Virus record (IMG/VR): IMGVR_UViG_3300032011_001365 | Span: 1 to 29,808 of that record | DNA length: 29,808 bases | Strand: one strand, 5' to 3' | Origin: a virus | The notes under the pieces: generated by a model | Databases searched by the model: none | Told to the model about the DNA's origin: nothing | The model's input: only the letters and a program-made list of their open reading frames with translations | Made by a program: the position numbers and the translations under genes | In this document: piece by piece, positions 3,229 to 25,613 of the stretch | Layout of the letters: the number at the start of each line of letters is the position of its first letter | Numbering within the stretch: position 1 is the stretch's first letter

Positions 3229-4137
3229 ATGAGAGATCTATTTGTTAATGGCTGTTCCTTTGCCACAGGTTGGCACGGCGGTGAATATACTATTCCTAGT
3301 ATAACATCAAAAGACGTAGTTACAGATACAATTAGTTGGGTGCAACACTTTGCTAATATGAACGATATACAAAACTGCTGGAACCATTCTATAGTAGCAA
3401 AACCCATAGACATGACAGTAATAGACAGCATAGGTTTTTGTGAACAATACTATAACAAGTATGGCACATTCAAAAATTTATTTGTTGTCTGTGAATTAAC
3501 CGATCCCTCTTATAGACAATTCGATCCTGTTACACTAAAAGGTCTAGTAACTGATAAAAGTTTTGATGATGACTATTCAATTGTGCCTATAGCATTTAGA
3601 GGAGATAGGCAATACATAGAAATCGAAGCAAGTGGATACAAATCTATATATGTAAAACTTAAAAAAGATATTGATTATCTATCCGGTGATCAATTTGCAG
3701 AACAGGTTCCAATGGAAGAAATAGCAGAAGGAGAGATTGCAAGGCATGATCATGAAAAAAATATTGCACTACAATTAAGAACTTCACAACTAAGTAATCT
3801 AGAATTAACACTACAGCAACTTACTAAAATGACAGATTACTTTCATAAAAATGATATACGTTATATAATGACTTGGACTGGAGGAAGAGATCCTAAATAT
3901 AAAAAAATATTAGACGCATATTACAAAAAATTTGTTAAGACAAAACGCCTTGTATCTGCTTACATATATGCAGGTGTTGATTTTAGTTTAGAACATTCAG
4001 TAGAACCTGTAGGTATGCACCCAGACCAAGCAGGCCATCTTGCTATTGCAGAATTCTTAACAGAATATATTACAATGTATAATCTTACTCAATCACCACA
4101 ACTAGATTTATTAAACAACCAAGAAAGCATTAACTAA
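3229..4137 (+). CDS. SGNH/GDSL-hydrolase-fold protein 2
   Basis: 302 aa. The N-terminus MRDLFVNGCSFATGW contains block I (GCS, candidate nucleophile S10), nearly identical in style to the 23209 protein. A C-terminal block V-like segment HPDQAGHLAIAEFL contains the general-base His, but the usual Asp just before H-P is replaced (VGMHP). The triad may therefore be incomplete or use another acid. A central region (about 150-190) is charged and probably an insertion. No signal peptide is visible. Its own TAAATA box and leaderless start place it in the late class, between an acidic late protein and the terminase motor. A deacylase of surface glycans or lipids is possible but unproven. Confidence 0.55.
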   Translation: MRDLFVNGCSFATGWHGGEYTIPSITSKDVVTDTISWVQHFANMNDIQNCWNHSIVAKPIDMTVIDSIGFCEQYYNKYGTFKNLFVVCELTDPSYRQFDPVTLKGLVTDKSFDDDYSIVPIAFRGDRQYIEIEASGYKSIYVKLKKDIDYLSGDQFAEQVPMEEIAEGEIARHDHEKNIALQLRTSQLSNLELTLQQLTKMTDYFHKNDIRYIMTWTGGRDPKYKKILDAYYKKFVKTKRLVSAYIYAGVDFSLEHSVEPVGMHPDQAGHLAIAEFLTEYITMYNLTQSPQLDLLNNQESIN

Positions 4138-4140
4138 ATA
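4135..4140 (+). promoter_or_regulatory. T4-late-type promoter box TAAATA before the terminase large subunit
   Basis: TAAATA-CTTAT-ATG, with a five-base spacer to the ATG at 4146. The first three bases are the TAA stop of the upstream SGNH gene. No Shine-Dalgarno sequence. Confidence 0.75.
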
Positions 4141-4145
4141 CTTAT

Positions 4146-5735
4146 ATGGCTAGAGGAACAGCAGATACAAGTTTAATTAAGCAAGGCTTCAAAAAAGTTC
4201 CTATGAGTAAAGAACAGTTATTGGACTTTGAAAATTGTTGTAATGAAGAAACAGGTGCTTTACATTTTATGAAAAAGCACATGAAGATACAACATCCTAC
4301 TCTAGGAGGCATAGACTTTGATCCTTTTGATTACCAAGAAGGTCTTGTAGAAAATTATAGCAAATACAGATACAGTATCAACATGCTGGGAAGACAGATG
4401 GGTAAAACTACTGTAGCCGCAGGATACTTGCTGTGGTATGCTATGTTTAAGCCTGACAGCACAATATTAGTTGCGGCTCATAAACAAGCAGGTGCTAGTG
4501 AAATTATGCAACGTATTAGATATGCATACGAAAGTGTGCCTAATCATATTAGAGCAGGTGTAACAGAATACAACAAAGGCTCTATGACAATGGACAATGG
4601 TAGTAGGATAATAAGTGCTACAACTACAGAAAATACTGGTAGAGGTATGTCACTTTCATTAGTTTACTTAGACGAGTTTGCATTTGTTCCACCTAGAATA
4701 GCCAAAGAGTTTTGGACTTCATTATCACCTACACTAGCAACAGGTGGTAAGTGTATAATTACAAGCACACCTAATAGTGATGATGACACTTTTGCTATGA
4801 TTTGGAACCAAGCAAACAAGATGTTTGACGAACATGGCAATGAACAAGATGTAGGTGTAAATGGGTTCAAACCTATGATTGCAAAATGGGAAGAACACCC
4901 AGATAGAGATCCTGCATGGGCAACTGAAGAAAGAGGAAGAATTGGAGAAGAACGTTTTAGAAGAGAACATGAATGTGAATTCGTTATCTACGATGAAACA
5001 CTTATAGATGCTTTGAAACTTTTAGAAATGAAAGGTGTTGAACCAAATCTCAAAATGGGGCAAACACGTTGGTATAAGCAACCAGATCCAGATTCTATTT
5101 TTGTAGTTGCATTAGATCCTAGTTCAGGAACAGGTGGCGACAATGCGGCAATACAAGTGTTAGAACTGTCAACTATGACGCAAGTTGCAGAGTGGTGTCA
5201 TAATAAAACACCTATAGAAGGCCAAATGAAAGCCATGTTAGATATTTTAATGTATCTAAAAGAATGCAAATGCGATCAACTGTATTGGTCTGTTGAAAAT
5301 AATGCTATTGGTGAGGCCGCTCTTGTTGTAATTAGAGATACAGGAGAAGAAACTTTCCCCGGTGATTTCTTACATGAACCTAAAAGAATACAAGGCAAGA
5401 AAGGTAGGAAAGGATTCCATACTACACATAAAAGTAAAATAGAAGGCTGTTTATTCCTCAAACGATTAGTAGAACAAGATAAAATTAGAATTAAAAGTAA
5501 GATGCTTGTATCAGAACTAAAAAACTTTGTATCAAGAGCAAATAGTTTTGCCGCTAAACCAGGCGAATTTGATGACTTAGTTATGTCTTTAGTAATTGCT
5601 GTAAGAATGATTCAATACATAGGAACATTCGAAGAAGGTGTTTATGACCAAGTAAATAGTGGTTTAGGTGCTGATGGATTATATGAAGATGATTGGGATG
5701 ATTCCGATGGACCAATGCCAATTGGGATAATTTAG
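4146..5735 (+). CDS. 17: Terminase large subunit, gp17-like DNA packaging motor
   Basis: 529 aa, somewhat shorter than T4 gp17 (610 aa). The N-terminal ATPase has Walker A GRQMGKTT (82-89), Walker B LVYLDEF with catalytic E177 (172-178) and coupling motif TSTP (206-209). The C-terminal RNase H-like nuclease has acidic residues D324 (VALDPSSG), E384 (WSVENN) and D476/D477 (EFDDLVMSL). This enzyme pumps genomic DNA into the prohead through the portal and makes the headful cut. The start is fixed by the TAAATA-N5-ATG arrangement. In this genome it is followed by a conserved 421-aa protein and the recombination genes rather than by tail genes 18 and 19 as in T4. Confidence 0.95.
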   Translation: MARGTADTSLIKQGFKKVPMSKEQLLDFENCCNEETGALHFMKKHMKIQHPTLGGIDFDPFDYQEGLVENYSKYRYSINMLGRQMGKTTVAAGYLLWYAMFKPDSTILVAAHKQAGASEIMQRIRYAYESVPNHIRAGVTEYNKGSMTMDNGSRIISATTTENTGRGMSLSLVYLDEFAFVPPRIAKEFWTSLSPTLATGGKCIITSTPNSDDDTFAMIWNQANKMFDEHGNEQDVGVNGFKPMIAKWEEHPDRDPAWATEERGRIGEERFRREHECEFVIYDETLIDALKLLEMKGVEPNLKMGQTRWYKQPDPDSIFVVALDPSSGTGGDNAAIQVLELSTMTQVAEWCHNKTPIEGQMKAMLDILMYLKECKCDQLYWSVENNAIGEAALVVIRDTGEETFPGDFLHEPKRIQGKKGRKGFHTTHKSKIEGCLFLKRLVEQDKIRIKSKMLVSELKNFVSRANSFAAKPGEFDDLVMSLVIAVRMIQYIGTFEEGVYDQVNSGLGADGLYEDDWDDSDGPMPIGII

Positions 5736-5736
5736 A

Positions 5737-5742
5737 TAAATA
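5737..5742 (+). promoter_or_regulatory. T4-late-type promoter box TAAATA before the 421-aa gene
   Basis: GATAAATA-GTTGT-ATG, with a five-base spacer to the ATG at 5748. It directly follows the gp17 stop at 5733-5735. No Shine-Dalgarno sequence. Confidence 0.7.
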
Positions 5743-5747
5743 GTTGT

Positions 5748-7013
5748 ATGGCAACTAATAAAAAACAAGTTTCAGAAAAAATTTTTAGTCTTCTAAAAGG
5801 TTTTGGCTACGAAGTTAAAACATTTGATGTTGAAGGCAATAATCAAGTTAATCCACAAGAAAGCACAAGATTTGTTGTAGACGAACCTAATATTATAGTA
5901 AGACTAGATTTAAATAAAAATTCTATAGTATTAAATACTAGCGAAGACTTGTCAGATCACAAAATTAGACCAATGATTAAAGAATTAAGCAAAGACTATT
6001 TGCTTAACTTTGATTATAATGTTTTTGGAAAAACCCTAAAAGCAAAAGGCGAGTTGCAAGATGCAGAAAAGAATTCGGAGAAAGAAATGGCAGACGTTAT
6101 GAAAGAGGCTAGTTTAGGTAAATTGTCAGGCTCTACTAAAACAAGTTATCAACCTTTAGAGAATGTAAAGATAGTTTTAAAACATAAAAAAGCAGTAGAC
6201 GAAGAAGTAAGAGGTTCACGTAGTAGAAATATACAAAATGTGTTTATACAACGTGGCGATGAAAGATTTAAACTACCTGAAAACAATTTAGCAATGGCTA
6301 GAGCAATGGCAAGACATGTTCAACAAGGTGGAGAAGTATATGATAGCATTGGTGAATCTATAGTAAACATGGCACAAGACTTAACAAAGTTACGTGAATT
6401 TATTGTTTATGTAAGAAGATCAAATATTGTTAATGAAGCAAACGCAGAGTATGTTGCATTAGCAGTAGAGAATATCAACAACATCAGAGAAACATTTAAA
6501 AAATTACAAGGTGCAAAAACATACGCAACAGCAGTAGAAAATTTATCAAATCAAGAAAAGTATAATTTAGAAGAAGATGACTCCGACATCCAATCATTAT
6601 TTACTGAAACACATTTTGATAGCAAAGTTGCAAATGTAATGGACAATTTAAGAACATTAAATTTAAAAAGAAAAGCATTTGAATCACACATTGTTAAAGC
6701 AATAGAAAACGAGCAATTTAACAATGCAGTAGACATGCTAAAAGAAACAGAATTATTACAATTCGACACACCTAATGCAAAATTAGGACATCAGGTGAGT
6801 CAATTAGGCTTCAGTGCTAAAGACGAAAGACTAGGAAGTTACTTACGTGACTGTGGTAAACGTCTTACTAGCGGAGGCAGAATGAGCGATTTTGATTACA
6901 AAGCAATCAAAAGTTCATTATTAAGTGCAGGAAATAAACCTATTCAAGGTGAGCCAATGTCTTATATGGAGTCATATGAGAAGTTTTTGGACCGTTTTTC
7001 AGTAGAATTTTAA
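5748..7013 (+). CDS. Conserved late protein of unknown function
   Basis: 421 aa, highly charged. An N-terminal alpha/beta part (1-105, with FSLLKGFGYEVKTFD) is followed by a charged linker and a mainly helical part (about 170-420) containing LPENNLAMARAMARHVQQGG, a segment I associate with conserved hypothetical proteins of marine T4-like phages. There is no catalytic motif, signal peptide or membrane segment. The leaderless late start and position after gp17 suggest a structural or assembly role. I cannot name the family. Confidence 0.45.
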   Translation: MATNKKQVSEKIFSLLKGFGYEVKTFDVEGNNQVNPQESTRFVVDEPNIIVRLDLNKNSIVLNTSEDLSDHKIRPMIKELSKDYLLNFDYNVFGKTLKAKGELQDAEKNSEKEMADVMKEASLGKLSGSTKTSYQPLENVKIVLKHKKAVDEEVRGSRSRNIQNVFIQRGDERFKLPENNLAMARAMARHVQQGGEVYDSIGESIVNMAQDLTKLREFIVYVRRSNIVNEANAEYVALAVENINNIRETFKKLQGAKTYATAVENLSNQEKYNLEEDDSDIQSLFTETHFDSKVANVMDNLRTLNLKRKAFESHIVKAIENEQFNNAVDMLKETELLQFDTPNAKLGHQVSQLGFSAKDERLGSYLRDCGKRLTSGGRMSDFDYKAIKSSLLSAGNKPIQGEPMSYMESYEKFLDRFSVEF

Positions 7014-7023
7014 CAGCATTTAA

Positions 7024-7029
7024 TAAATA
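7024..7029 (+). promoter_or_regulatory. Possible late promoter box TAAATA upstream of gp32
   Basis: AATAAATA lies just after the stop of the 421-aa gene in the 185-bp intergenic region. Unlike the other boxes no ATG follows five bases later, so any transcript would carry a long leader to the gp32 ATG at 7199. AT-rich context makes a chance match possible. Confidence 0.3.
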
Positions 7030-7045
7030 AAGTTGTAATTTAAAA

Positions 7046-7061
7046 ATTGTCCTAGGACAAT
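7046..7061 (+). repeat. 16-bp perfect palindrome ATTGTCCTAGGACAAT
   Basis: A gap-free palindrome centred between 7053 and 7054, with the only GC-rich core in an AT-rich spacer. It could be a dimeric-protein operator or, as RNA, a hairpin. No T-run follows, so it is not a classic intrinsic terminator. It lies 49 bp upstream of the -35 box of the gp32 promoter. Confidence 0.6.
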
Positions 7062-7066
7062 CAGAG

Positions 7067-7084
7067 AATTACATTATTGTAATT
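7067..7084 (+). repeat. Inverted repeat with 7-bp stem and 4-nt loop, possible weak terminator
   Basis: AATTACA-TTAT-TGTAATT followed by TT. The stem is all but one pair A/T, so it would be a weak hairpin. It sits between the late block and the gp32 promoter. The 3' arm is part of TTGTAATTT (7077-7085), which is also present at 7033-7041 as a direct repeat. Confidence 0.35.
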
Positions 7085-7109
7085 TTGGCAATTTATTTGC
7101 AAAAATAGG

Positions 7110-7141
7110 TTGACAGAGTTGCATTTAGGCATTAATATAAT
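7110..7141 (+). promoter_or_regulatory. Sigma70-type promoter for gp32
   Basis: A perfect -35 TTGACA (7110-7115) is followed by overlapping -10 choices: TAATAT at 7133-7138 (17-nt spacer) or consensus TATAAT at 7136-7141 (20-nt spacer). Transcription from here gives a leader of roughly 50-55 nt to the gp32 start. Confidence 0.65.
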
Positions 7142-7147
7142 AAAACA

Positions 7148-7167
7148 GTAGTAGAAACACATACTAC
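7148..7167 (+). promoter_or_regulatory. Hairpin in the gp32 mRNA leader
   Basis: GTAGTA (7148-7153), an 8-nt loop, then TACTAC (7162-7167). This perfect 6-bp stem lies near the predicted 5' end of the gp32 transcript, about 20 nt before the AGGAG. T4 gp32 represses its own translation through a folded leader (established). A similar role here is inferred from position only. Confidence 0.4.
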
Positions 7168-7198
7168 GACATGGCATACAATCAATAGGAGACACATT

Positions 7199-8212
7199 AT
7201 GGCATCATTGGCAGAAATCAGAGCAAAACTACAATCTATGGAATCAAAACCTGGTAGTTCACCCGCTCAAAGCGACAAAGCAATTTACCCTTTTTGGAAT
7301 ATCGACGAAGGAACAAGCACCGTTCTTAGGTTCTTACCTGACTCAGATCCAAACAACACGTTCTTTTGGGTAGAACGACAAATGATCAGACTTACATTCC
7401 CAGGAGTGGCTGGCGGAGAACAGAAACCTGTTACCGTTCAAGTCCCTTGTATGGAAATGTGGGGTGACACATGCCCTGTATTGACTGAGGTTCGTCCTTG
7501 GTTTAAAGACGCAAGTCTTGAAGATATGGGAAGAAAGTATTGGAAAAAACGTTCATACATTTTCCAAGGCTTTGTAAACGAGAATCCACTTAACGAAGAA
7601 ACACCTGATAATCCTATCAGACGTTTTGTTATTGGACCGCAAATCTTTAACATTATCAAATCAGCATTGATGGACCCAGAAATGGAAAATCTACCAACTG
7701 ATTATGTAAATGGAACTGATTTCCGTTTATCGAAAACTACAAAAGGTCAATACGCAGACTACTCTACAAGTAAATGGGCAAGAAAAGAATCTGCTCTTAC
7801 TGAAGATCAACTTGCGGCAATTGATACAAATGGACTATTCACTCTGAATGATTTCCTACCTGCTAAACCAACAGCAGAAGGCGTTCAAGCAATAGCAGAA
7901 ATGTTCCAAGCATCAGTAGATGGGGAGTTATATGACCCTGCAAAATGGGGTGGTTTTTACAAACCCTACGGACTTGATGTGGGAAGCAAAACACAATCAA
8001 CAGTGGCATCGGCTCAACCTGCTCCGGCAGTATCACAGCCTGCAACAGAGAGTGTGGCTCCTGCAGTAGAAACACCTGCTCCGGCACCAGCGGCAACACC
8101 AGTTGCTGAACCAGTTGCTGAAACACCTGCACCTGCTACGGCAAGTGAAGACGTTGGTAAGAAGTCGGCTGATGATATTTTAAATATGATCAGAAACAGA
8201 CAGTCGTCTTAA
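7199..8212 (+). CDS. 32: Single-stranded DNA-binding protein gp32
   Basis: 337 aa. The N-terminal basic segment is followed by the gp32 signature AIYPFWNIDEGTSTVLRFLPD (around 28-48) and a Zn-region-like element CMEMWGDTCPVL (84-95). The T4 zinc site uses H64, C77, C87 and C90. Here C84 and C92 remain, but the third Cys is Leu95 and no matching His is obvious, so zinc binding is probably lost or altered. An Ala/Pro-rich flexible linker (about 263-315) leads to a short C-terminal tail with KKSADDILNMIRNRQSS, which is less acidic than in T4. It coats ssDNA in replication and recombination and works with UvsX and UvsY encoded just downstream. The start has TAGGAG 9 nt upstream. Confidence 0.92.
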   Translation: MASLAEIRAKLQSMESKPGSSPAQSDKAIYPFWNIDEGTSTVLRFLPDSDPNNTFFWVERQMIRLTFPGVAGGEQKPVTVQVPCMEMWGDTCPVLTEVRPWFKDASLEDMGRKYWKKRSYIFQGFVNENPLNEETPDNPIRRFVIGPQIFNIIKSALMDPEMENLPTDYVNGTDFRLSKTTKGQYADYSTSKWARKESALTEDQLAAIDTNGLFTLNDFLPAKPTAEGVQAIAEMFQASVDGELYDPAKWGGFYKPYGLDVGSKTQSTVASAQPAPAVSQPATESVAPAVETPAPAPAATPVAEPVAETPAPATASEDVGKKSADDILNMIRNRQSS

Positions 8213-8223
8213 GGAGTTAAATC

Positions 8224-9327
8224 ATGCAGAAACCTTTTGACTTAACAAAGTTCAGAACTGGAATCACCAAAAGCATTAGTGGTATCAGTGCAGGATTTCA
8301 TGACCCTAGGGATTGGATCAGCACTGGTAACTACACACTTGACTATTTAATTAGTGGTGACTTTAGCGGAGGTATTCCTCTAGGTAAAGTAAGTGTGTTT
8401 GCTGGAGAATCTGGTTCAGGCAAATCCTTTATATGTTCTGGGAACGTTGTAAAAAATGCACAAGAGGCAGGATGTCAAGTAGTGTTGTTCGATTCAGAGA
8501 ACGCACTTGACGAACAATGGCTTCAAGCATTAGATGTTGATACCAGTCCTGAAAAACTATTAAAAATTAGTGTTTCAATGATTGACGATGTTGCAAAAGC
8601 AGTATCAGAATTTTTGAAAGACTATAAAGCAAACTACTCCGATCTTCCATACGAAGAAATGCCAAAGTTAGTATTTGTTGTTGATAGTTTAGGAATGTTA
8701 TTAACACCCACTGACGTTGCTCAGTTCGAAAAAGGTGACATGAAAGGTGACATGGGTAGAAAACCTAAGGCATTAACAGCCTTGGTTAGAAACACAGTTA
8801 ACCAGATTGCACCTTTCCCAATAGCACTAGTGGCAACAAATCATACTTATGCATCACAAGACATGTTTGACCCTGATGATAAAATCAGTGGCGGACAAGG
8901 TTTTATATATGCAAGTAGTATTGTAGTTGCTATGAAGAAACTTAAACTTAAAGAGGATCTTGATGGTAATAAAGTAACCACGGTGCAAGGAATCAGAGCG
9001 GCCTGTAAAGTGATGAAGTCACGATACAGCAAACCTTTTGAAGGTGTTCAAATCAAAATACCATATGAAACTGGCATGGACCCATATAGTGGCCTATTGG
9101 AAATGCTAGAATCTAAAGGTATAGTTGAAAAAGTAGGAAATAAACTTTCTTACATTTCACCTGTAACTAATGAAGAAATCAAAGAGTTCAGAAAAGGCTG
9201 GACTGGAGATAAACTTCAGGTAATTATAGACGAATGGGGTCAAAATCCAAAAGTGCAAATTGCAGATGAGGACGTTGACTTAGACGATTTAGAACCAACT
9301 GAAGAGGAATACGCAGATGAATCCTGA
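8224..9327 (+). CDS. uvsX: UvsX, RecA-family recombinase
   Basis: 367 aa. RecA/UvsX core with Walker A GESGSGKSF (61-69), a catalytic-Glu region FDSENALDE (89-97), Walker B FVVDSLG (151-157), and a DNA-binding-loop region near GDMKGDMGRKPKALT. The C-terminus is acidic (DEDVDLDDLEPTEEEYADES). It forms filaments on ssDNA displaced from gp32 and drives strand invasion for recombination-dependent replication. Length is close to T4 UvsX (391 aa). AAGGAG precedes the start. It lies 11 nt after gp32 and overlaps the next small gene by 11 nt, indicating one operon. Confidence 0.95.
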   Translation: MQKPFDLTKFRTGITKSISGISAGFHDPRDWISTGNYTLDYLISGDFSGGIPLGKVSVFAGESGSGKSFICSGNVVKNAQEAGCQVVLFDSENALDEQWLQALDVDTSPEKLLKISVSMIDDVAKAVSEFLKDYKANYSDLPYEEMPKLVFVVDSLGMLLTPTDVAQFEKGDMKGDMGRKPKALTALVRNTVNQIAPFPIALVATNHTYASQDMFDPDDKISGGQGFIYASSIVVAMKKLKLKEDLDGNKVTTVQGIRAACKVMKSRYSKPFEGVQIKIPYETGMDPYSGLLEMLESKGIVEKVGNKLSYISPVTNEEIKEFRKGWTGDKLQVIIDEWGQNPKVQIADEDVDLDDLEPTEEEYADES

Positions 9328-9550
9328 AGTAGCATTATTACTTGAAACATGGGACAGCATAAAGTCATACCTTCCTAAGAAAGAAAGACTTAATATTGCA
9401 GAAATACTCGTTAGAACATTCGATGATAATGTAGATATTTCTGAAATTGAAAGTAACATCATGGAATTCGATTCAATAATGAAAGCGGCTATTGTTAGTC
9501 ATTTTGATATTGGTATCGAAGAAGATGAAGAAGACGAGGATTGGGATTAA
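9317..9550 (+). CDS. Small acidic conserved protein between uvsX and uvsY
   Basis: 77 aa. The N-terminal part is helical (LETWDSIKSYLPKKERLNIAEILVRTF) and the tail is very acidic (EEDEEDEDWD). The start overlaps the uvsX end and its stop TAA shares a base with the uvsY ATG (TAATG), so it is translated within the recombination operon. Acidic tails in this setting often contact ssDNA-binding or recombination proteins, so an accessory role is plausible. I know similar proteins only as conserved hypotheticals of marine T4-like phages. Confidence 0.55.
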   Translation: MNPEVALLLETWDSIKSYLPKKERLNIAEILVRTFDDNVDISEIESNIMEFDSIMKAAIVSHFDIGIEEDEEDEDWD

Positions 9551-10011
9551 TGGCAACTTGGTATAATGAAGTAGTTTCAGATTTAAGCAAAATGGTCGAC
9601 GCCATTGCTTATTACGAAGACGAACTTAATGATGCCAAATACGAATGCAGAATAAAGGGAAGCCTGGAAAAAGCCAGTGCTTCCCTTCCCGGCACAACAG
9701 AGTTTCGCTTCAATCAACTACAAGAGATTGAAGCAATTCTCGAACATCTAAATATAGAACTTCGCAAAGAACGTTCAAAGACATTTAGAAAATTTTTAGA
9801 ATCATATAATAGACAATTATCTAGTAGAGACGCAGAAAAGTTTGTTGACAGCGAACAAAGTGTTATAGACTTAACACACCTAACAAATCAATTTAGTCTT
9901 TTGCGAAACAAATACTTAGGCATAATGAAAGGACTAGACACAAAGCAATGGCAGATAGGACATATAACGAGATTGAGAACAGCGGGAATGGAAGACATAG
10001 TAATAGGGTAA
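9550..10011 (+). CDS. uvsY: UvsY recombination mediator
   Basis: 153 aa from the ATG at 9550, close to T4 UvsY (137 aa). An in-frame TTG at 9541 is a poorer start. The ATG shares a base with the upstream stop and gives MATWYNEVVSDL. Helical and charged, with a C-terminal segment (LRNKYLGIMKGLDTKQ, then IGHITRLRTAGMED) that parallels T4 UvsY (LQYWGILLDFCSGAL, then IKHIQDMRAFEAGK). UvsY loads UvsX onto gp32-coated ssDNA. The operon order gp32-uvsX-x-uvsY supports the call. The last 64 nt also encode the start of the next gene in another frame. Confidence 0.75.
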   Translation: MATWYNEVVSDLSKMVDAIAYYEDELNDAKYECRIKGSLEKASASLPGTTEFRFNQLQEIEAILEHLNIELRKERSKTFRKFLESYNRQLSSRDAEKFVDSEQSVIDLTHLTNQFSLLRNKYLGIMKGLDTKQWQIGHITRLRTAGMEDIVIG

Positions 10012-11171
10012 ACTTCTTTTACAGATTAAATAATTGCTTAGAACGTGACCGAGAAAACTTTGAAAATTTCACAGAGACTTTAACACAAGATCTTCGCGAC
10101 TATTGTTCGCAAAATTCAAATAGAGAAAATGTTTATGTGTATTTTGAATATACACAAGAAGGCACATTGTGGGTAGTAAACGGAAAATGGTTTGGTGATG
10201 TTATCCATGAGTTCGCACACAAATATAATTTACCCTTAGAAAATATTACTTTTCATGGCGGTGCGGCTACACTAAAAGAAAATTATCACAAGTGGCATTC
10301 TATACATAGACCCAATGAAGGTAAAATAAATATCAGAAGCACTGATTTTGGTCGTTGGCTTTATGCAAAAACTAATCCATTTTATAAAATACTAAAGTTT
10401 CCAAAAGAAGCACACAAAAATCTAAGACCAAAAAAGTTTAATTGTTTAAATGCAAATTTAGGCATACAACATAGAATTGTATTTTTGCATTACATGTGGA
10501 AAAATGGATTACTTACAGAAGAAAATATTAAAAACAACTTAATAAGTTTTCATTACTTTCACACATTATACTATCCAATAGAAAAACAATATCCACTAGA
10601 ACAAGAACTAAAGGATATGTTACCTTTACAATTTGATTTAGTAGGGGATTGGGAGCAAGTATATGCTAAAATATTTGAAAAAGATTCTGATTTAACAGAT
10701 TGGAACAAAACAGGAGATTATACCTATTTGTATGATGACTGTTACTTTACAGTAACTACAGAAAGCGGAGAGTGTCCTCAATTATGTGATCAATTTGGTC
10801 ACAATGTTGAATTAAATGATCACTTTAGGCCATATCATCATGAGATGTTTATTACAGAAAAAACAACAAGACCTATGCTCTACTTACATCCACAAATACT
10901 TTATTCCACATCAGGAACTTTAGAATATTTAAAAGAATGTGGTTTTAAAACTTTCAGTAATTATTGGAGCGAAGATTATGACAACGAAGAAAACGGAGAT
11001 AAAAAAGTTCAAATGATAATGGACGTTGTAAAAGAACTTAATAATAAATCTTTGGAGGAGTTGCATGAAATGTATTGGGACATGATGCCAATACTGAAAC
11101 ATAACCAAAACGTCCTAATAAATTCGGAAGTAGACAAATATTCAAATGGTCTATTTCCGCTTGACTTATAA
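9948..11171 (+). CDS. Putative glycosyltransferase-like protein
   Basis: 407 aa. The C-terminal third contains FITEKTTRPMLYLHPQILYS, then GTLEYLKECGFKTFSNYWSEDYD. This follows a pattern (x-ITEKT-x(2)-P...P-x-I-L...G-x-L-x-YL...GF-x-TF...W-x-E-x-YD) that I associate with fucosyltransferase/GT10-like proteins of large phages and bacteria. An upstream segment KKFNCLNANLGIQHRIVFLHYMWKN fits the same group. If correct, it would use a nucleotide sugar to modify a glycan, nucleic acid or virion protein. The ATG at 9948 lies inside uvsY (64-nt overlap), and the next in-frame Met is far downstream. It ends just before the TonB-receptor promoter, whose -35 overlaps its last codons. The assignment is from pattern memory and moderate at best. 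Confidence 0.45.
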   Translation: MADRTYNEIENSGNGRHSNRVNFFYRLNNCLERDRENFENFTETLTQDLRDYCSQNSNRENVYVYFEYTQEGTLWVVNGKWFGDVIHEFAHKYNLPLENITFHGGAATLKENYHKWHSIHRPNEGKINIRSTDFGRWLYAKTNPFYKILKFPKEAHKNLRPKKFNCLNANLGIQHRIVFLHYMWKNGLLTEENIKNNLISFHYFHTLYYPIEKQYPLEQELKDMLPLQFDLVGDWEQVYAKIFEKDSDLTDWNKTGDYTYLYDDCYFTVTTESGECPQLCDQFGHNVELNDHFRPYHHEMFITEKTTRPMLYLHPQILYSTSGTLEYLKECGFKTFSNYWSEDYDNEENGDKKVQMIMDVVKELNNKSLEELHEMYWDMMPILKHNQNVLINSEVDKYSNGLFPLDL

Positions 11172-11188
11172 AGGAAAGAATGTATAAT
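11161..11188 (+). promoter_or_regulatory. Sigma70-type promoter for the TonB-dependent receptor gene
   Basis: -35 TTGACT (11161-11166), 16-nt spacer, perfect -10 TATAAT (11183-11188), predicted start near 11195 and GGAG before the ATG at 11219. The -35 overlaps the end of the upstream coding sequence, so the receptor can be transcribed on its own. Confidence 0.6.
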
Positions 11189-11218
11189 GAATAATAAGAA
11201 TTCTATAATGGAGATAAA

Positions 11219-13204
11219 ATGAAAGAATTTGATAAGAATTTCCACATAAATTTTTCGCCTCTATATGTTGCTTTTGTTGTAATGCTAGGTATGTTAATAG
11301 CATTTGAAACTAAAGCAAGTGAGATTGAAGAAGTAATTGTGGTAGCACAGCAGGAAAGGGAAACTAAAGCCGAGCCTGTAGAAGATGAATCTATAATTAG
11401 TATAATTATGCCAGCATTTACATATCCTCAAGGTGGCCCAGGTGGCTTTGTTGGATATGCTGAACGAGGAGCACAAACTATACACACTTCTGTTTTTGTA
11501 AACGGAATACCTGCAAATGATCCTGGTGCAGGATGGTATGACTTTGGTCATGACATTGCACATGGTCAAACAGTAAAAGTTATATCAGGTTCTAATAGTG
11601 TTTTGTATGGCTCAGGTAGTATGGCTGGAACAGTATTAATACAAGACACAATTGAGCATGGCATAACATTAAAAAGAGGAAATGATGATTACACTAGAGT
11701 TGCACCTATAGATCAGTTTGAAGTTAGTTCATATAAAGGTAGCATTGGAAGTGTAAGAAACGACAATGATGAAAAAGATCAATATGTAAACAAAACAGCA
11801 AGGCTAAATGTTGATGTTGGAGACTTTACTATTGTAGGTAAATTTTCTGAATACGAATACGACTACGATAATTGTTATGATTATAATTGGGGCCAATCAA
11901 ACGATTGTTTACAAGATGGCAAAAGATATAATGTAGCAATTAGAAATGAATACTTCACTATAGGTAGAAACTATAATACTGCTGATTATTTTACAGTAGA
12001 AGATCCAACATACTCAAATGAAAGTTTTAGAGACTTTGTTAGATTTGGCCAAAATATGAATTTAAGTCAAAACTTGTCAGTAGCATTTGGAGTTGATGCA
12101 GAAAAAATTTACTACAATACTAACAGTTGGCAAAACGTTGAAGGGTCCACTGAGATTGAGACTGAACTTACGGAACCATCTATTTACTATGATGAAGAAT
12201 TAGATACAAATAAAATAAGACCATTATGGGATGGTGGTTTTATTGGCACGGGTGAATTTGTAACTTCTACTGTCGGCGATGGGGTATATACATTAACTGA
12301 GATACAAGAAAAACATTCAGATGAAAATGTTGGATTGTATTTTTCTGCAAATGCAAGTTTTGTATTAGATTACAACTTTGGTATTAGGCTTGGCAACGAT
12401 GATCAAAATGCTTTAAGATTAGGAATTGCAAAGGGTAATTGGTTTTTAAATGTAGGAAACAGTTTTAGAAAACCTAATCTGTATGAACTTAATGGTGACG
12501 GTTTTGTAGATGGTAATGCAGAACTTAAACCAGAAGAAGGCGTAGGCGTAGAACTTGGCTATGGTGCTGTTAGTGTGTTTATGTATGACTTTCAAGAGTC
12601 TATAGAATACATACCAGGATACAATACAGAAATAAGCACTACAAAAGTTGAATTAGATGTAGATGCTACACTTGATCCTATAACTGGTCCAGGTGCAGGT
12701 TGTGTTTTATTATCAACATGGAATGCTAATGATGAAGCAACGTTTGGACTACCTGGTTGTATTTACTCAAATCAAACAACTATAACTAACGTATATAATA
12801 TGCCCACATACGCAAACACAGGAGAATACACTACACAAGGTATTAGATTTGCTAACAACTTTGGTCCTGTATTAATATCACTGAAATATACAGATACAGA
12901 CCAAGCAAGAATACCTAAGTATGTAGGACTTATACAATGGGAACAAATGTTTAATGGCGTAAAATTTAATGTAAAATATGCAGTAAATTTAGATAGAGCA
13001 CCCGGACAATATGATGTCTTACCAGAAGGCCAAGAGTATTTGGAAGACTTGCATAAACTAGACTTAACTATAGTAAAAGAATTTACAAATGGTGTTACAT
13101 TAGCATTAAAAGGAACTAACTTAACAGACGAAGTCGTAGAGGTTACTCCTTACTATAATAACCAAGGAAGAGAAATAAATCTTGCACTTAACTATAAATG
13201 GTAG
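11219..13204 (+). CDS. TonB-dependent outer-membrane receptor
   Basis: 661 aa. A signal peptide (about 1-33) has hydrophobic core LYVAFVVMLGMLIAF and likely cleavage TKA|S. A TonB-box-like EEVIVVA follows at 37-43. The plug region (about 65-145) shows VFVNGIPANDP (92-102), then VKVISGSNSVLYGSGSMAGTVLI (119-141), the typical plug core. The rest is beta-barrel-like, with a FRKPNLYELNG segment and a C-terminal NLTDEVVEV...GREINLALNYKW. The terminal aromatic Trp fits the outer-membrane assembly signal. Cys pairs in predicted loops (NCYDYNWGQSNDC; later GAGC...PGC) suggest disulfides outside the cell. These receptors import ferric siderophores, cobalamin or other scarce nutrients using TonB energy. 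The plug seems short at its N-terminal end. The open frame is intact and has its own promoter and ribosome binding site. Ligand not identifiable. Confidence 0.85.
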   Translation: MKEFDKNFHINFSPLYVAFVVMLGMLIAFETKASEIEEVIVVAQQERETKAEPVEDESIISIIMPAFTYPQGGPGGFVGYAERGAQTIHTSVFVNGIPANDPGAGWYDFGHDIAHGQTVKVISGSNSVLYGSGSMAGTVLIQDTIEHGITLKRGNDDYTRVAPIDQFEVSSYKGSIGSVRNDNDEKDQYVNKTARLNVDVGDFTIVGKFSEYEYDYDNCYDYNWGQSNDCLQDGKRYNVAIRNEYFTIGRNYNTADYFTVEDPTYSNESFRDFVRFGQNMNLSQNLSVAFGVDAEKIYYNTNSWQNVEGSTEIETELTEPSIYYDEELDTNKIRPLWDGGFIGTGEFVTSTVGDGVYTLTEIQEKHSDENVGLYFSANASFVLDYNFGIRLGNDDQNALRLGIAKGNWFLNVGNSFRKPNLYELNGDGFVDGNAELKPEEGVGVELGYGAVSVFMYDFQESIEYIPGYNTEISTTKVELDVDATLDPITGPGAGCVLLSTWNANDEATFGLPGCIYSNQTTITNVYNMPTYANTGEYTTQGIRFANNFGPVLISLKYTDTDQARIPKYVGLIQWEQMFNGVKFNVKYAVNLDRAPGQYDVLPEGQEYLEDLHKLDLTIVKEFTNGVTLALKGTNLTDEVVEVTPYYNNQGREINLALNYKW

Positions 13205-13217: not shown

Positions 13218-14675
13218 ATGAATAAATGTGTTCTAGAAATCAGAGATGAAGTAAACGTCAGGTTTACAGGTCTTGACGTTAAAACAAGACGTAAGATTTC
13301 AGATGAAGTCAAATACTTCTTACCCTATGCATATCATATGCCTGCTTATAAACTAGGTAGATGGGACGGATGTCTTAGATTTTGTGATATAGGAGGTAGA
13401 ACATATTTCCATTTATTAGAAAAACTTTTACCTATTGTTGCAAATGATGGATACGACATAGAAGTAAAAGACCTCAGAAAGTCATGGGAATTTAATTTTA
13501 AGAAAGTTGATCAAACTGATTATGAACATATTGCTTGGCCGCCTAGACATCCTGTTGCAGGCACGCCAATAATATTAAGAGATTATCAAGTAGATGTAAT
13601 TAATAAGTTTTTAGAGAATCCACAATGCTTACAAGAAATTGCCACAGGTGCAGGTAAAACATTAGTTACAGCAGTATTAAGTCATAAGTGCGAACCATAT
13701 GGTAGAACTATTGTTATTGTTCCAAACAAAGATCTTGTTGTTCAAACAGAAAAAGATTATAAGAATTTAGGATTAGACGTTGGTGTATTTTTTGGAGACA
13801 GAAAAGAATACAATAAAACGCACACTATTTGCACATGGCAAAGTTTAAGTATCCTTGAAAAGAAAACAAAGGCACACGAAGCCGATTTTCCAGTAGAAGA
13901 ATTTTTAGATGGTGTTGTTTGTGTTATGGTCGACGAAGTCCATAAAGCAAAGGCAGATGTATTAAGAAATTTACTTGGTGGTGCTTTTGCAAATGTTCCT
14001 ATTAGATGGGGACTTACAGGAACTATTCCTAAAGATGAGCATGAGGCTGTAGGAGTATTTTGTAGTTTAGGACCAGTTGTTGGTAATTTAAGCAGTAAAG
14101 AATTACAAGACATGGGTGTATTAGCAGACTTAGATGTTAATATATTTCAACTACAAGACGGTGTGCTAGGCTTTAATAGTTATGCACAAGAACTAAAATG
14201 GTTACTAACTGATGATAAACGTATTGATCATATTAGTGAAATTATAAAAGGTTTAGCAACTAGCGGAAATACATTAGTTTTAATTGACAGAATTAAAACA
14301 GGTGAAATGCTTTTAGAAAGAAATCCAGACTGGGTATTTATAAGTGGCTCTATGAAAACAAAAGATAGGCAAGATGAATATGCAGAGGTTAGTGAGTTAA
14401 ACAATAAAGTTATTGTTGCTACATATGGTGTAGCGGCAGTAGGCATTAACATTCCTAGAATATTTAATTTAGTAATGTTAGAGCCAGGAAAGAGTTTTGT
14501 TCGTGTTATACAAAGTATCGGAAGAGGTATTCGTAAAGCAGAGGACAAAGATTATGTGCAAGTGGTTGACATCACAAGCAATTTAAAGTATAGTAAAAGA
14601 CACCTTACAAAAAGAAAGCAGTTCTATAAAGAACAGAATTTTAGACATAAGGTAACAAAGGTTGAATACAAATGA
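13218..14675 (+). CDS. uvsW: UvsW-like SF2 helicase
   Basis: 485 aa, close to T4 UvsW (503 aa). An N-terminal substrate-recognition domain (1-110, with LPYAYHMPAYKLGRWDG) precedes helicase motifs: Q-motif-like RDYQ (121-124), Walker A ATGAGKT (142-148), DEVH box (239-242), motif III LTGT (266-269) and motif VI-type QSIGRGIRK near residue 440. UvsW unwinds branched DNA and R-loops, and shifts T4 from origin- to recombination-dependent replication. ATGA overlap with the next gene indicates coupled translation. Confidence 0.93.
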   Translation: MNKCVLEIRDEVNVRFTGLDVKTRRKISDEVKYFLPYAYHMPAYKLGRWDGCLRFCDIGGRTYFHLLEKLLPIVANDGYDIEVKDLRKSWEFNFKKVDQTDYEHIAWPPRHPVAGTPIILRDYQVDVINKFLENPQCLQEIATGAGKTLVTAVLSHKCEPYGRTIVIVPNKDLVVQTEKDYKNLGLDVGVFFGDRKEYNKTHTICTWQSLSILEKKTKAHEADFPVEEFLDGVVCVMVDEVHKAKADVLRNLLGGAFANVPIRWGLTGTIPKDEHEAVGVFCSLGPVVGNLSSKELQDMGVLADLDVNIFQLQDGVLGFNSYAQELKWLLTDDKRIDHISEIIKGLATSGNTLVLIDRIKTGEMLLERNPDWVFISGSMKTKDRQDEYAEVSELNNKVIVATYGVAAVGINIPRIFNLVMLEPGKSFVRVIQSIGRGIRKAEDKDYVQVVDITSNLKYSKRHLTKRKQFYKEQNFRHKVTKVEYK

Positions 14676-15177: not shown

Positions 15178-15936
15178 ATGGCAAAATATAGATATAGAAT
15201 AGAAGGCAGTAGATATGGAGGCGAACTAGTAGTAGGTGAAATAAATCCTAATTTTGCTAGACATTATCAAGATCATGACTGTTCTGAACTTGTTGATGTA
15301 GTATTGGATGCCGATGACTGGCATAATCATAGCGATAGTGATGAACCACAAGATGCATTATTAGATCCTAACACTCCTCCGAGTCCTTCATTAGATGGAG
15401 AGCCTGGTTTTAACATGTGGGAAAATGATGATTTAGAACATCTTAATGGACCGTATGCAGATGGCGGGTTTACAGTATATGAAGTTCCTGCAGACAGCAC
15501 AGATGATTGGGACTACGAAAAAGAAGTATATGATGGAGAAGCAATACTTGTATATGGTAGAGAAGGAGCATATTTTAGTAGAGAAGAACCAACAGAAAAT
15601 GCAGAAGAATACATTCCTGTTTTAGCATTTCACAGTTCAGAGAAAGGAACGTTTGGAGTTTGGTTTGTAGACACTGATGAGCCATTTGATGAATTTAAAC
15701 TAGGTTACGGAATTTGTGAAACAAACCTTTGTGAATTAGTAGATAATGTTTACTATGACAAGCAAGAATTAGATGCAGATTATGATTACAATGACACAAC
15801 CGGTAAAAGTTATGACGCAGATATTGGTTGGTTAAATAAAAAGTGGAGAGATCCATTTGATAAGTATTCAGAAATCGACGAGGAAACTTGGGAAGATTTT
15901 AATGATAACGTTGAATGGGAAAGAGAAAATAGATGA
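15178..15936 (+). CDS. Highly acidic hypothetical protein
   Basis: 252 aa, start set by AGGAG 7 nt upstream. A short basic beta-rich N-terminus (MAKYRYRIEGSRYGGELVVG) is followed by long Asp/Glu-rich stretches, with many Trp and Tyr (for example DDWDYEKEVYDGEAILVYG). A composition this acidic can mimic DNA or bind basic partners, but no family is recognised. The ATGA overlap with the next gene puts it in the uvsW-to-metK operon. Confidence 0.45.
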   Translation: MAKYRYRIEGSRYGGELVVGEINPNFARHYQDHDCSELVDVVLDADDWHNHSDSDEPQDALLDPNTPPSPSLDGEPGFNMWENDDLEHLNGPYADGGFTVYEVPADSTDDWDYEKEVYDGEAILVYGREGAYFSREEPTENAEEYIPVLAFHSSEKGTFGVWFVDTDEPFDEFKLGYGICETNLCELVDNVYYDKQELDADYDYNDTTGKSYDADIGWLNKKWRDPFDKYSEIDEETWEDFNDNVEWERENR

Positions 15937-16736
15937 AAAGAATTTTAATTTTTGGTTTACCTGGTTCAGGTAAATCTACTTTAGCAGAAAAACTAGTAGA
16001 AGTATTAGGTAATGCCGATTGGCACAACGCAGACAAAATCAGAGAAACATTTGATGATTGGGATTTCTCACCTGAGGGCAGAGAACGTCAATCATTACGA
16101 ATGAGAGATTATGTTAGAAAAAGTGTTGCAAAAGGAAATTATGGTGTAGCCGACTTTGTTTGTCCAACAAATGAACTTCGAGAAAAGAATGTTCCTGAAT
16201 ATGTAATTTGGATGGATACTATTGAAGAAGGCAGATTTGAAGACACAAATAAAATGTTTGAAAAGCCTACAATAGATAGTGTAAAAATAAATGCTATTGT
16301 AACAGCAGAAGATTGGTGGACAGAAGAAAAGGTTGAGGAATGGGCAAGACTAATTGCTGTTGATATTAAAGATCACGAGTTTCAACCAAAGCAACCAACC
16401 ACGCAAATGTTAGGGAGATTTCAACCATTCCACGATGGACATAAAGCATTATTTGAAAAGGCTGTAGCAAAGCATGGTCAAGTTGCAATACTGGTTAGAG
16501 ACATGCCACTTACAGATGATGACCCATGGCAAGTAGATAAGATATGCGAAAATATAGAAATAGCATTGGCCGAACATGCAGGAAAATTTAGATGTTACCC
16601 TGTGCCTAACATAATGAATATTACTTATGGCAGAGGAGTAGGGTATAAAATTGAAGAGGAAGTTCTTGATGAGGAAACACAAAAAATAAGTGCAACAAAA
16701 ATTAGAGAACAAATGAGAAAGGATGGCAAATTATAA
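15933..16736 (+). CDS. Fusion of APS-kinase-like P-loop kinase and NMNAT-like nucleotidyltransferase
   Basis: 267 aa with two domains. Residues 1-150 are a P-loop kinase: Walker A GLPGSGKS (8-15), NADKIR (32-37), DWDFSPEGRERQSLRM (42-57), and VADFVCPTNELRE then VWMDTIEEGRFEDTN-type elements that parallel adenylylsulfate kinase (CysC). Residues 155-267 are a nucleotidyltransferase with GRFQPFHDGH (161-170, carrying the HxGH motif) and ISATKIR (252-258), the pattern of NadM/NadR-type NMN adenylyltransferases. NadR joins NMNAT and a ribosylnicotinamide kinase in the opposite order. The product may serve NAD salvage, or PAPS formation plus a separate transfer. The exact substrates are open. It overlaps both neighbours (ATGA upstream, 14 nt downstream). 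Confidence 0.7.
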   Translation: MKRILIFGLPGSGKSTLAEKLVEVLGNADWHNADKIRETFDDWDFSPEGRERQSLRMRDYVRKSVAKGNYGVADFVCPTNELREKNVPEYVIWMDTIEEGRFEDTNKMFEKPTIDSVKINAIVTAEDWWTEEKVEEWARLIAVDIKDHEFQPKQPTTQMLGRFQPFHDGHKALFEKAVAKHGQVAILVRDMPLTDDDPWQVDKICENIEIALAEHAGKFRCYPVPNIMNITYGRGVGYKIEEEVLDEETQKISATKIREQMRKDGKL

Positions 16737-17007
16737 TCACCCTGCATACACAAGATATCCACATTTGAAAAAAGGAACCATTGCAGGTGATTATATAAAC
16801 AGCGAAGATAATTTAAGATTTACAAAATGGAGAAAGACTTTTGCTTTTACGCCTAAGATTACAATTAGTGGAAACAGGGTTTGGTTTAAACTGCTCTACA
16901 AAAGAGATAGATGGTTACATATAGAACCACCGCAGTTTCCTAAAGACCATTTTGTAAAAACAGAATATGCAGAATGGGATGAAATATTAAATTTAAAAAT
17001 GAGGTAA
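16723..17007 (+). CDS. Small conserved hypothetical protein before metK
   Basis: 94 aa, basic and rich in aromatic residues (WRKTFAFTPKITISGNRVWF, then LLYKRDRWLHIEPPQFPK). Its start lies 14 nt inside the kinase-fusion gene, and its stop is two bases before the metK ATG, so it belongs to the same transcript. No known motif is recognised. The pattern of Trp, Tyr and Lys could suit nucleic-acid or protein contact, but this is only an impression. Confidence 0.5.
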   Translation: MANYNHPAYTRYPHLKKGTIAGDYINSEDNLRFTKWRKTFAFTPKITISGNRVWFKLLYKRDRWLHIEPPQFPKDHFVKTEYAEWDEILNLKMR

Positions 17008-17009
17008 AC

Positions 17010-18107
17010 ATGTATCAATTCACAAGTGAAAGTGTGTCGCAAGGACATCCAGACAAAGTTGCAGATCTAATTTCAGATACAGTAGCAACGTATTTAATAA
17101 ACTCTAACAAACAACATAGAGCGGCTGTGGAAACTATAGTCACTACCAACAAAGTCGTGTTAGCCGGCGAATACAAAAGCGACAGAGGTGCTAATAAGGA
17201 TAGAATAGCAAACTTAGTAAGAGACGTAATACAAGAAATAGGATATGAACAAGAAGGCTTTCATTGGGAAACAGTAGAAATACAAAATAATTTACATGGA
17301 CAATCACCTGATATAGCACTAGGCACAGATGACTTTGGTGCTGGAGACCAAGGTATTATGTTTGGTTATGCATGTGAAGAAGCAGGAAATAAATTACCTT
17401 ATCCTTTATTTTACAGTCATGAAATATTAAAAAAATTACAAGACTTAAGAAAAAATGACTCTGCCTTTACATGGCTAGAACCTGACAGCAAGGCTCAAGT
17501 AACATTCAATTACGGTAGTGACGGCAAGCCGATAGATATTTCAAATATTGTTTGTAGCACTCAACACAAAGAAGAAGTTGACATAGAATTTGTTAGAAAT
17601 AATGTAAGTGATATAATACAAGATGTTGCAGGAAGTTTTATTACAAACAAGACAACATTTCATATTAATCCAACTGGTAGATTTGTTATTGGTGGCCCCG
17701 ATGGTGACACAGGATTAACTGGTAGAAAGATTATTGTAGACACATATGGAGGAGCATCTCCTCATGGCGGTGGAGCATTTAGTGGTAAAGATTGCACTAA
17801 AGTAGATAGAAGTGCCGCCTATATGGCTAGAGCAGTAGCAAAACAAATATTAGTGGAAAATGATTTTCAAGAAGTATTAGTGCAATTAAGTTATGCTATC
17901 GGAATAAAAGAACCTACGTCAGTAACAGTTTGGACTGATAAAAAAATAAATTATGTTGTTGCAGAGAAAGTAAAATCAGTTGTGGATTTAACACCATTAG
18001 GTATTATAAATAAATTTAAATTGTTTGATTTTGATCTAACTAAAACTACAAATTATGGGCACTTTGGTAAAAATGATTTACCATGGGAGCATGAAGCATG
18101 GACTTAA
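17010..18107 (+). CDS. metK: S-adenosylmethionine synthetase (methionine adenosyltransferase)
   Basis: 365 aa, slightly shorter than the E. coli enzyme (384 aa). It keeps the hallmark elements: SESVSQGHPDKVADLISD (6-23; bacterial enzymes usually read SEGHPDK), GAGDQGIMFGY (110-120) and GGPDGDTGLTGRKIIVDTYGG (228-248) followed by the PHGGGAFSGKDCTKVDRSAAY phosphate-binding loop. It makes SAM from methionine and ATP in the cytoplasm. GAGG lies 5 nt before the start, and apt overlaps its end by 10 nt. The motifs look intact, so it is probably active. Host MetK is normally essential and present, so a phage copy points to raised or redirected SAM demand. Confidence 0.95.
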   Translation: MYQFTSESVSQGHPDKVADLISDTVATYLINSNKQHRAAVETIVTTNKVVLAGEYKSDRGANKDRIANLVRDVIQEIGYEQEGFHWETVEIQNNLHGQSPDIALGTDDFGAGDQGIMFGYACEEAGNKLPYPLFYSHEILKKLQDLRKNDSAFTWLEPDSKAQVTFNYGSDGKPIDISNIVCSTQHKEEVDIEFVRNNVSDIIQDVAGSFITNKTTFHINPTGRFVIGGPDGDTGLTGRKIIVDTYGGASPHGGGAFSGKDCTKVDRSAAYMARAVAKQILVENDFQEVLVQLSYAIGIKEPTSVTVWTDKKINYVVAEKVKSVVDLTPLGIINKFKLFDFDLTKTTNYGHFGKNDLPWEHEAWT

Positions 18108-18631
18108 AACAACATATTAGAACTGTTTTAGATCATCCTATAGAAGGTATAAAGTTTAGAGATATAACATCTCTAACTGAAAACCCAAAAGCATTTCATA
18201 AAACACTAATAGACATTACATCTGAATGTATGGACTTTACAGTTGATACAATAGTTGCTATAGAAAGCAGAGGTTTTGTTTTTGGTTCTGCAGTGGCTAG
18301 AGATTTAGAAGTTCCCTTTGTTATGGCTAGAAAGCCAGGAAAGTTACCAAACGAAACTGTAAGTAAAGAATTTAAATTAGAGTATGGTGAAACAGAATTG
18401 CATTTACAAAAAATTTCGCCCATCCAAGGTAGGGTAGTAGTTATAGATGATTTAATTGCTACAGGCGGAACAGCACTTGCCTGTGCAGATTTAATTCACG
18501 AGAACTTTGATATAGCAAAAAAAGATATTTTAATTCTGGCTGTAATAGACTTGCCCGATTTGAAGGGAAGTGCTATAATACAAGAGCAAGGTTACAATAT
18601 TAAAACACTTATAGAATTTGAAGGCGAATAA
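18098..18631 (+). CDS. apt: Adenine phosphoribosyltransferase
   Basis: 177 aa, usual Apt length. Type I phosphoribosyltransferase fold with FRDIT (20-24), AIESRGFVFGSAVA (54-67) and the PRPP-binding loop VVVIDDLIATGGTA (113-126). It converts adenine and PRPP to AMP. The gene begins inside the last codons of metK, suggesting joint expression. Adenine is released when SAM-derived products (SAH or methylthioadenosine) are degraded by host nucleosidase, so the pair could recycle SAM-derived adenine (inferred). Its stop shares one base with the next ATG. Confidence 0.93.
   Translation: MDLKQHIRTVLDHPIEGIKFRDITSLTENPKAFHKTLIDITSECMDFTVDTIVAIESRGFVFGSAVARDLEVPFVMARKPGKLPNETVSKEFKLEYGETELHLQKISPIQGRVVVIDDLIATGGTALACADLIHENFDIAKKDILILAVIDLPDLKGSAIIQEQGYNIKTLIEFEGE
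18551..18579 (+). promoter_or_regulatory. Possible internal sigma70-type promoter at the end of apt
   Basis: TTGCCC (18551-18556), 17-nt spacer, perfect TATAAT (18574-18579) preceded by TGC, giving an extended -10. The predicted start is near 18586, just upstream of the micro-ORF and the clamp-loader-like gene. It lies inside coding sequence, so a chance match is possible. Confidence 0.35.
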
Positions 18632-25343: not shown

Positions 25344-25613
25344 GTGGCTAAACATAGAAGCATATTAGAAGAATTAAATAAAATTTCCGTCGATAAGAGC
25401 AAGGATTACGTTGTGGAAAATCGTGCTGAGCATGTTATAGCAAGTGCAATCAATCTGCTAGAACAAGTTGATAGAAACTACTCACCAGAAGAAGCAAAAA
25501 ATTTAACTAATAGGCTTGTAAATAGTATCAAACATCGCGATCCTTCAAAATTTTCTAGAGGTATTAAAAAAATTATCAAAGAAAACTTGAAGGAGCAATC
25601 AAGTGAAGATTAA
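25344..25613 (+). CDS. Small conserved late protein
   Basis: 89 aa from a GTG start backed by GGAGAG. Basic and helical (RSILEELNKISVDKSKDYV; AEHVIASAINLLEQVDRNYS). I recall similar small proteins starting MAKHRSILEEL in marine T4-like phages, always as hypotheticals. It opens the right-hand late operon, overlaps the next gene by 11 nt and is probably a structural or assembly factor. Confidence 0.55.
   Translation: MAKHRSILEELNKISVDKSKDYVVENRAEHVIASAINLLEQVDRNYSPEEAKNLTNRLVNSIKHRDPSKFSRGIKKIIKENLKEQSSED

Follow-up and report, generated by a model that had tools for sequence, protein, structure and literature searches.

The DNA examined here is a viral stretch of 29,808 nucleotides (hereafter, the window), in which TerL, a virion protein, SSB, UvsX, UvsY, a gene of 407 codons, a receptor gene and UvsW follow one another (Table 1). 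The receptor gene forms a single intact reading frame whose GC content equals that of the rest of the window. Judged by eye, the protein opens with a leader, MKEFDKNFHINFSPLYVAFVVMLGMLIAFETKAS, and the leaders of its relatives, also by eye, proceed from a hydrophobic stretch through an AxA/S site to the TonB box, which together with its flanking residues reads EIEEVIVVAQQ in the window protein. The sole Pfam match of this protein is Plug (PF07715), which lies above the gathering score (E 4.7e-7), covers residues 64-138 with profile positions 32-107 of 107, and was matched in all 34 family members. None of the Pfam barrel families scores on the receptor; the barrel was assigned because of the profile comparison with BtuB and the structure models, and the chain ends on W661. 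The first-pass annotation had read this locus as an intact TonB-dependent receptor in one frame, a reading borne out by the 661-residue frame, the box, the plug above its cut-off and the terminal tryptophan, together with the leader as judged by eye.

Table 1. Features of the receptor gene and its neighbourhood, in window coordinates.
Feature	Position	Strand	Basis or remark
UvsX-like recombinase, marker of the block	8224..9327	+	PHROG 1.2e-67
UvsY-like recombination mediator	9541..10011	+	PHROG 1.8e-11
Upstream gene without assigned function, 407 aa	9948..11171	+	Variable between relatives
Sigma70-type promoter, TTGACT-16-TATAAT	11161..11188	+	11/12 consensus; overlaps end of upstream gene
Ribosome-binding site GGAG	11210..11213	+	Read from the sequence; GGAG common here in relatives
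BtuB-like TonB-dependent receptor, 661 aa	11219..13204	+	ATG at 11219, stop at 13204; Pfam, profile comparison, structure models
Sec-type signal peptide, about aa 1-34	11219..11320	+	Judged by eye
TonB box IEEVIVVAQ, aa 36-44	11324..11350	+	Low entropy between variable flanks
Plug core, aa 64-143	11408..11647	+	Pfam Plug, 4.7e-7
Beta barrel, aa 148-661	11660..13201	+	22 strands counted on model of a 554-aa relative
Acidic loop RNDNDEKDQY, aa 180-189	11756..11785	+	At place of BtuB loop L2 (model and hhalign)
Loop YEYDYDNC..C, aa 212-234	11852..11920	+	At place of BtuB loop L3 (model and hhalign)
UvsW-like helicase, conserved downstream neighbour	13218..14675	+	PHROG 4.6e-73
MetK	17010-18107		Within window

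Structure prediction for the window protein (pLDDT 77) returned TonB-dependent receptors exclusively among its top PDB matches. The model of a 554-residue family member, L073, is of higher confidence (pLDDT 85, pTM 0.83) and contains a plug and 22 barrel strands, counted as DSSP elements, so that the absence of a 22-strand barrel, named beforehand as an observation that would tell against the assignment, does not apply to the family. The twelve best PDB matches of this model are all cobalamin transporters, comprising ten structures of E. coli BtuB and two of Bacteroides BtuB (best E 1e-19, TM up to 0.73), with ZnuD and Cir as the next fold matches. Given that the HMMER bias term was large, we relied on hhalign and its controls. 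The family aligned with BtuB at 97% over 505-509 columns; for CirA, PqqU and FepA the alignment was confined to the plug, while FhuA, FecA and the shuffled and reversed controls gave none. Of the BtuB/FecA-like families with which the first-pass annotation had proposed a comparison, the receptor thus resembles BtuB, over the full length, and not FecA. Because the score against the curated BtuB model TIGR01779 is 19.3 bits against a cut-off of 599.7, we describe the receptor as BtuB-like and do not file it as BtuB; among NCBIfam models, haem-type models match 27 of the 34 members and BtuB 26, all below cut-off.

Also apparent from the profile alignment was a plug that is shorter on its N-terminal side, in keeping with the first-pass annotation and with the Pfam match that begins at profile position 32. 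Approximately 16 fewer residues than in BtuB separate the TonB box from the first plug helix; none of the 34 members carries these extra residues, and no member shows gaps in that stretch. In BtuB, plug apices and loops L2-L5 bind the ligand, and calcium held by aspartates helps cobalamin binding (PMC7360065). The phage loops at the places of L2 and L3 are likewise acidic and conserved, although their residue alignment to the calcium-binding aspartates of BtuB is uncertain. R180, D182, N183, E185, D187 and Y189 of the first loop are invariant in the 34 members, as are C219 and C230 of the second, which may form a disulfide. The plug apex of the phage receptor bears a motif, WYDFGHD, that is absent from BtuB, which indicates that the ligand pocket differs.

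A total of 183 related stretches were confirmed in IMG/VR, whose contigs are mostly fragments, and the best 80 of these were retrieved. Two genomic settings were identified. In setting A the receptor lies within the UvsX/UvsY/UvsW block, mostly directly before UvsW and usually behind an AAA+ ATPase gene, which in one subgroup sits between the receptor and UvsW instead. This ATPase is the gene of about 345 codons found beside the receptor in most relatives, which had been considered as a transport partner and was thereby ruled out as one. In setting B, within the baseplate module of related phages, the receptor starts a few bases past a co-directional PNP_UDP_1 nucleosidase-like gene (7453-7998 in L036, and likewise in the other relatives of this setting), with which it probably forms one transcription unit. 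Anchoring the search on UvsW, we found the receptor directly upstream in 68 of the 78 neighbourhoods with enough upstream DNA, the other ten representing empty sites in which the ATPase is followed by approximately 100 bp, containing an apparent terminator and a TTGACA-type promoter, and then by UvsW. The receptor is therefore a self-contained cargo gene, with its own promoter and present or absent among relatives at one site. A second copy per phage was sought and ruled out, each of 15 contigs having one locus.

Outside IMG/VR, no relative of the receptor was found in INPHARED, and 84,980 species genomes, scanned twice, yielded 48 and 64 pattern matches, none of which was confirmed as a cellular relative; since these scans depend on short patterns, a diverged cellular donor may have been missed. 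INPHARED phages were also considered as carriers of TonB-dependent receptors in general and rejected, the best-scoring matches falling on bacterial-looking contigs or unannotated fragments. The entry for Pseudomonas phage Y13 carries the label UNVERIFIED; AFYI01000005, AGRM01000004 and CAKLQH020000002 resemble bacterial chromosome contigs (16S rRNA, btuB). Bacterial-looking records of this kind are a pitfall when phage-encoded receptors are counted.

The near-consensus sigma70 promoter that had been noted ahead of the receptor was confirmed, and in a consensus scan it ties for the best among 46 sites in 12 kb. Sites that agree with the consensus at 11 or more of its 12 bases occur within 120 bp in 35 of the 43 distinct upstream regions of relatives in setting A, compared with 0/33 upstream of UvsX, 0/6 in setting B and 2.3% of random 120-bp stretches. 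SSB and UvsW are often preceded by the same kind of promoter, which thus marks the transcription units of the block and not the receptor alone. In several relatives (L009, L015, L027 and L031) the final codons of the receptor contain a TTGACA/TATAAT promoter for UvsW. From its sequence, the receptor promoter would be used by host sigma70, and hence early in infection.

The gene order supports the earlier placement of the receptor in a recombination block (SSB, UvsX, UvsY, UvsW), and the accompanying label, T4-like, can be refined to a relative of PA5oct/Rak2-type jumbo phages. The nearest isolates by TerL (57%) and UvsW (55%) are PA5oct-type Pseudomonas phages, those by UvsX are Sinorhizobium phage Phosso (65%) and Atu_ph07 (64%), and gp6 shares 40% identity with the PA5oct/Rak2/121Q/Atu_ph07/Phosso jumbo group; by these identities, the phage belongs near the PA5oct/Rak2/Atu_ph07-type jumbo phages. 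A related IMG/VR contig, G001, spans 250 kb or more. Vibrio phage 2.275.O shares the order TerL-SSB-UvsX-UvsY-UvsW, with an unrelated gene in the receptor's place, and none of the jumbo isolates Vibrio 2.275.O, Paride, Phosso and Atu_ph07 has an annotated receptor between UvsX and UvsW. The host of the lineage must be Gram-negative, and the setting of these phages is apparently marine, going by the literature on comparable phages.

Further cargo was observed in these phages. At 15933-18631 of the window, a NadR-like kinase/nucleotidyltransferase, an S-adenosylmethionine synthetase and a phosphoribosyltransferase adjoin, which suggests phage-carried NAD and SAM metabolism. A protein encoded at 25603-27792 of the window, and again at 226774-228963 of G001, where a DnaJ-like protein adjoins, resembles a Clp-type ATPase by eye; the window protein had no PHROG match. 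In G001, a long run of radical-SAM/SPASM-like proteins was seen by eye among cargo genes at 162-177 kb (L114), two other proteins exceed the Radical_SAM cut-off, and a ferredoxin-reductase-like protein is present. The same contig carries a curli-like block on the minus strand (L110, G001 80001-100000, at about 3346-12550 therein) with CsgG (Pfam 4e-48), a FecR-domain protein, a CHASE2-cyclase and, by eye, curlin-repeat proteins.

Sequence variation within the family is unevenly distributed. Mean entropy in the TonB box is 0.67-0.72 bit, compared with about 1.7 in the leader and the segment after the box, and the plug core and the loops RNDN[DE]EED and YEYDYDNC..C are among the most conserved parts of the family. 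Selection on the receptor is purifying, with faster change than in UvsW and UvsX (median dN/dS 0.26 over 838 pairs, versus 0.09 for both). Relative to a close relative, L027, the receptor shows dN 0.25 and dS 1.49, while the surrounding genes show dN 0.01-0.12 and dS 0.3-1.2, most of them having dS 0.3-1.0, a pattern better explained by replacement of the allele than by rapid evolution at the locus. Furthermore, 17 of the 33 well-supported splits in the receptor tree conflict with UvsW splits, so that, as read from the trees, receptor alleles recombine between phages. Two interchangeable kinds of leader occur among relatives, the DKNFHINFSPLY type and the FFHKHIIKFT type, consistent with allele exchange.

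What the analysis yields directly are the sequence, the family, the predicted fold, the promoter sequence, synteny, purifying selection and allele exchange. From these we infer, with a probability of about 0.58, an early-expressed, TonB-coupled receptor that takes up a large and scarce nutrient, for which a corrinoid is our best guess; the timing, the insertion, the coupling to TonB, the ligand and the benefit are all parts of that inference. On this reading, host sigma70 polymerase would read the gene from its strong promoter upon infection, and Sec would export the product, which would be inserted in the outer membrane as a plugged barrel of 22 strands. The conserved box would then be gripped by host TonB, whose pull on the shortened N-terminal plug segment would open the channel to a scarce large nutrient, such that the long infection of a jumbo phage would not be starved. 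The TonB would have to be the host's, since none is encoded in the 15 contigs. TonB-coupled uptake is favoured by the conserved box, plug core and ligand-side loops, the purifying selection and the gene's own promoter; the conserved box in particular would argue against a simply blocked channel.

With regard to the ligand, cobalamin or another corrinoid is the likeliest class because BtuB alone, among the E. coli receptors tested, can be aligned with the family from one end to the other. A link to B12 or SAM chemistry, through MetK, the nucleosidase-like gene of setting B and a B12-binding domain in one contig, is circumstantial; this domain scores over its cut-off in G009 and is absent from 13 of the 15 contigs, which are mostly fragments. 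Cobalamin riboswitches are common, though not universal, for BtuB; the Rfam search returned neither such a riboswitch nor any other match, which speaks against a corrinoid. So do the differing plug apex and the ribonucleotide reductase of the phage, which, judged by eye, belongs to the iron-type class I and implies no direct need of B12. In BtuB, residues 23-73, the 50 after the box, are the part that TonB unfolds (PMC5413942), and the phage form, with about 16 fewer residues, may for that reason open more easily. A fuller scenario, which we consider improbable as a whole, would have the lineage install its own corrinoid gate in the host outer membrane early on, a relative of BtuB that has lost part of the weak plug subdomain, that needs less unfolding by TonB to open and whose alleles pass from phage to phage.

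Uptake of another ligand, such as iron-siderophore, haem, zinc or an organic nutrient, is a variant of the favoured reading in which the likeness to BtuB would reflect scaffold and short loops. The near-equal numbers of members matched by haem-type and BtuB models, all below cut-off, would fit it, as would ZnuD and Cir following in the fold matches and a plug apex unlike that of BtuB; moreover, the many radical-SAM proteins and the ferredoxin-reductase-like protein in G001 would raise the demand for iron. Conversely, among the receptors compared by profile only BtuB aligned along the full length, and we regard this variant as tentative, somewhat short of an even chance. Far more remote is an assembly chimera or stray bacterial gene. 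A single window and the lack of an INPHARED member might raise that suspicion, but the 183 IMG/VR stretches, the same neighbours in dozens of contigs and a GC content like that of the window contradict it, and no family member was confirmed in the genome collection scanned. Absence from related genomes together with chimerism, which the first-pass annotation had listed as grounds for doubt, therefore does not apply, recurrent synteny ruling out contamination and leaving this explanation a negligible probability.

TonB-dependent receptors are common phage attachment sites, and the phage receptor could accordingly serve superinfection exclusion, crowding out, masking or replacing a host receptor or titrating TonB through its box and so blocking rival TonB-dependent phages or bacteriocins. 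An early-type promoter would suit such a fast block, and the allele exchange described above (17/33 splits; dS 1.49 relative to L027) also fits genes in conflict with host or competitor, for which reason we retain exclusion or TonB titration as an unlikely alternative. A decoy, however, needs neither a conserved plug core nor conserved ligand-side loops, yet both are highly conserved, and for titrating TonB the box alone would suffice, with no need to conserve an entire barrel. A channel that leaks or opens with ease appears less probable still. The stretch between TonB box and plug that the family lacks falls in the part of BtuB unfolded by TonB (PMC5413942), such that its loss could lower the opening force and let in mixed solutes or weaken the envelope before lysis, and marine myophages carry another outer-membrane pore, CsgG (PMC9004378), which G001 has alongside the receptor. 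Nevertheless, a mere pore would not need the plug core that is kept and conserved here, and the predicted model of the 554-residue member retains its plug domain.

Outer-membrane receptors are known as doors for phages. That a phage lineage brings and keeps a door of its own would suggest that long infections are limited by the uptake of nutrients or by control over the host surface. Because its plug is short by nature, the receptor also lends itself to testing the model according to which TonB unfolds the first 50 residues of the plug to open such gates. Furthermore, the family stands sufficiently apart for searches of metatranscriptomes and metaproteomes, in which its peptides might otherwise pass for those of bacterial receptors.

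Among known systems, a single BFVD entry matched the receptor below 0.001, annotated as SusC of an uncultured marine phage (A0A8D9FQQ5), which we take to be the SusC-type receptor of Mar_Mega_1. A phage TonB-dependent receptor of this type has been reported in that megaphage and in few genomes (PMC9723777). Both are phage-encoded TonB-dependent receptors of giant marine phages; the Mar_Mega_1 protein, however, is of the SusC type, with 805 aa and about 10% identity, whereas the present family is BtuB-like, comprises 183 stretches and mostly has its own promoter. By annotation alone, pelagiphage Skadi offers a further parallel, a "TonB-dependent receptor" of a marine phage, whose gene is surrounded by those for tail and capsid and which the authors took as a hint at the adsorption receptor (PMC10504331). 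The CsgG curli pore of marine myophages (PMC9004378) is likewise a phage-borne outer-membrane channel, although of another fold and family, and occurs in G001 only, one of the 15 contigs. In the open-access literature, we found no report of phages with a family of BtuB-like receptors. Phage TonB-dependent receptors were thus known before, and the BtuB-like phage family appears to be new and unrelated in sequence to that of Mar_Mega_1. Its closest counterpart is E. coli BtuB (TIGR01779 / PRK10641), with which it shares 22 strands, a TonB box and a GREYTL-like last strand, and from which it differs in an identity of only about 17-26% and in the paired cysteines of the loop at the place of L3.
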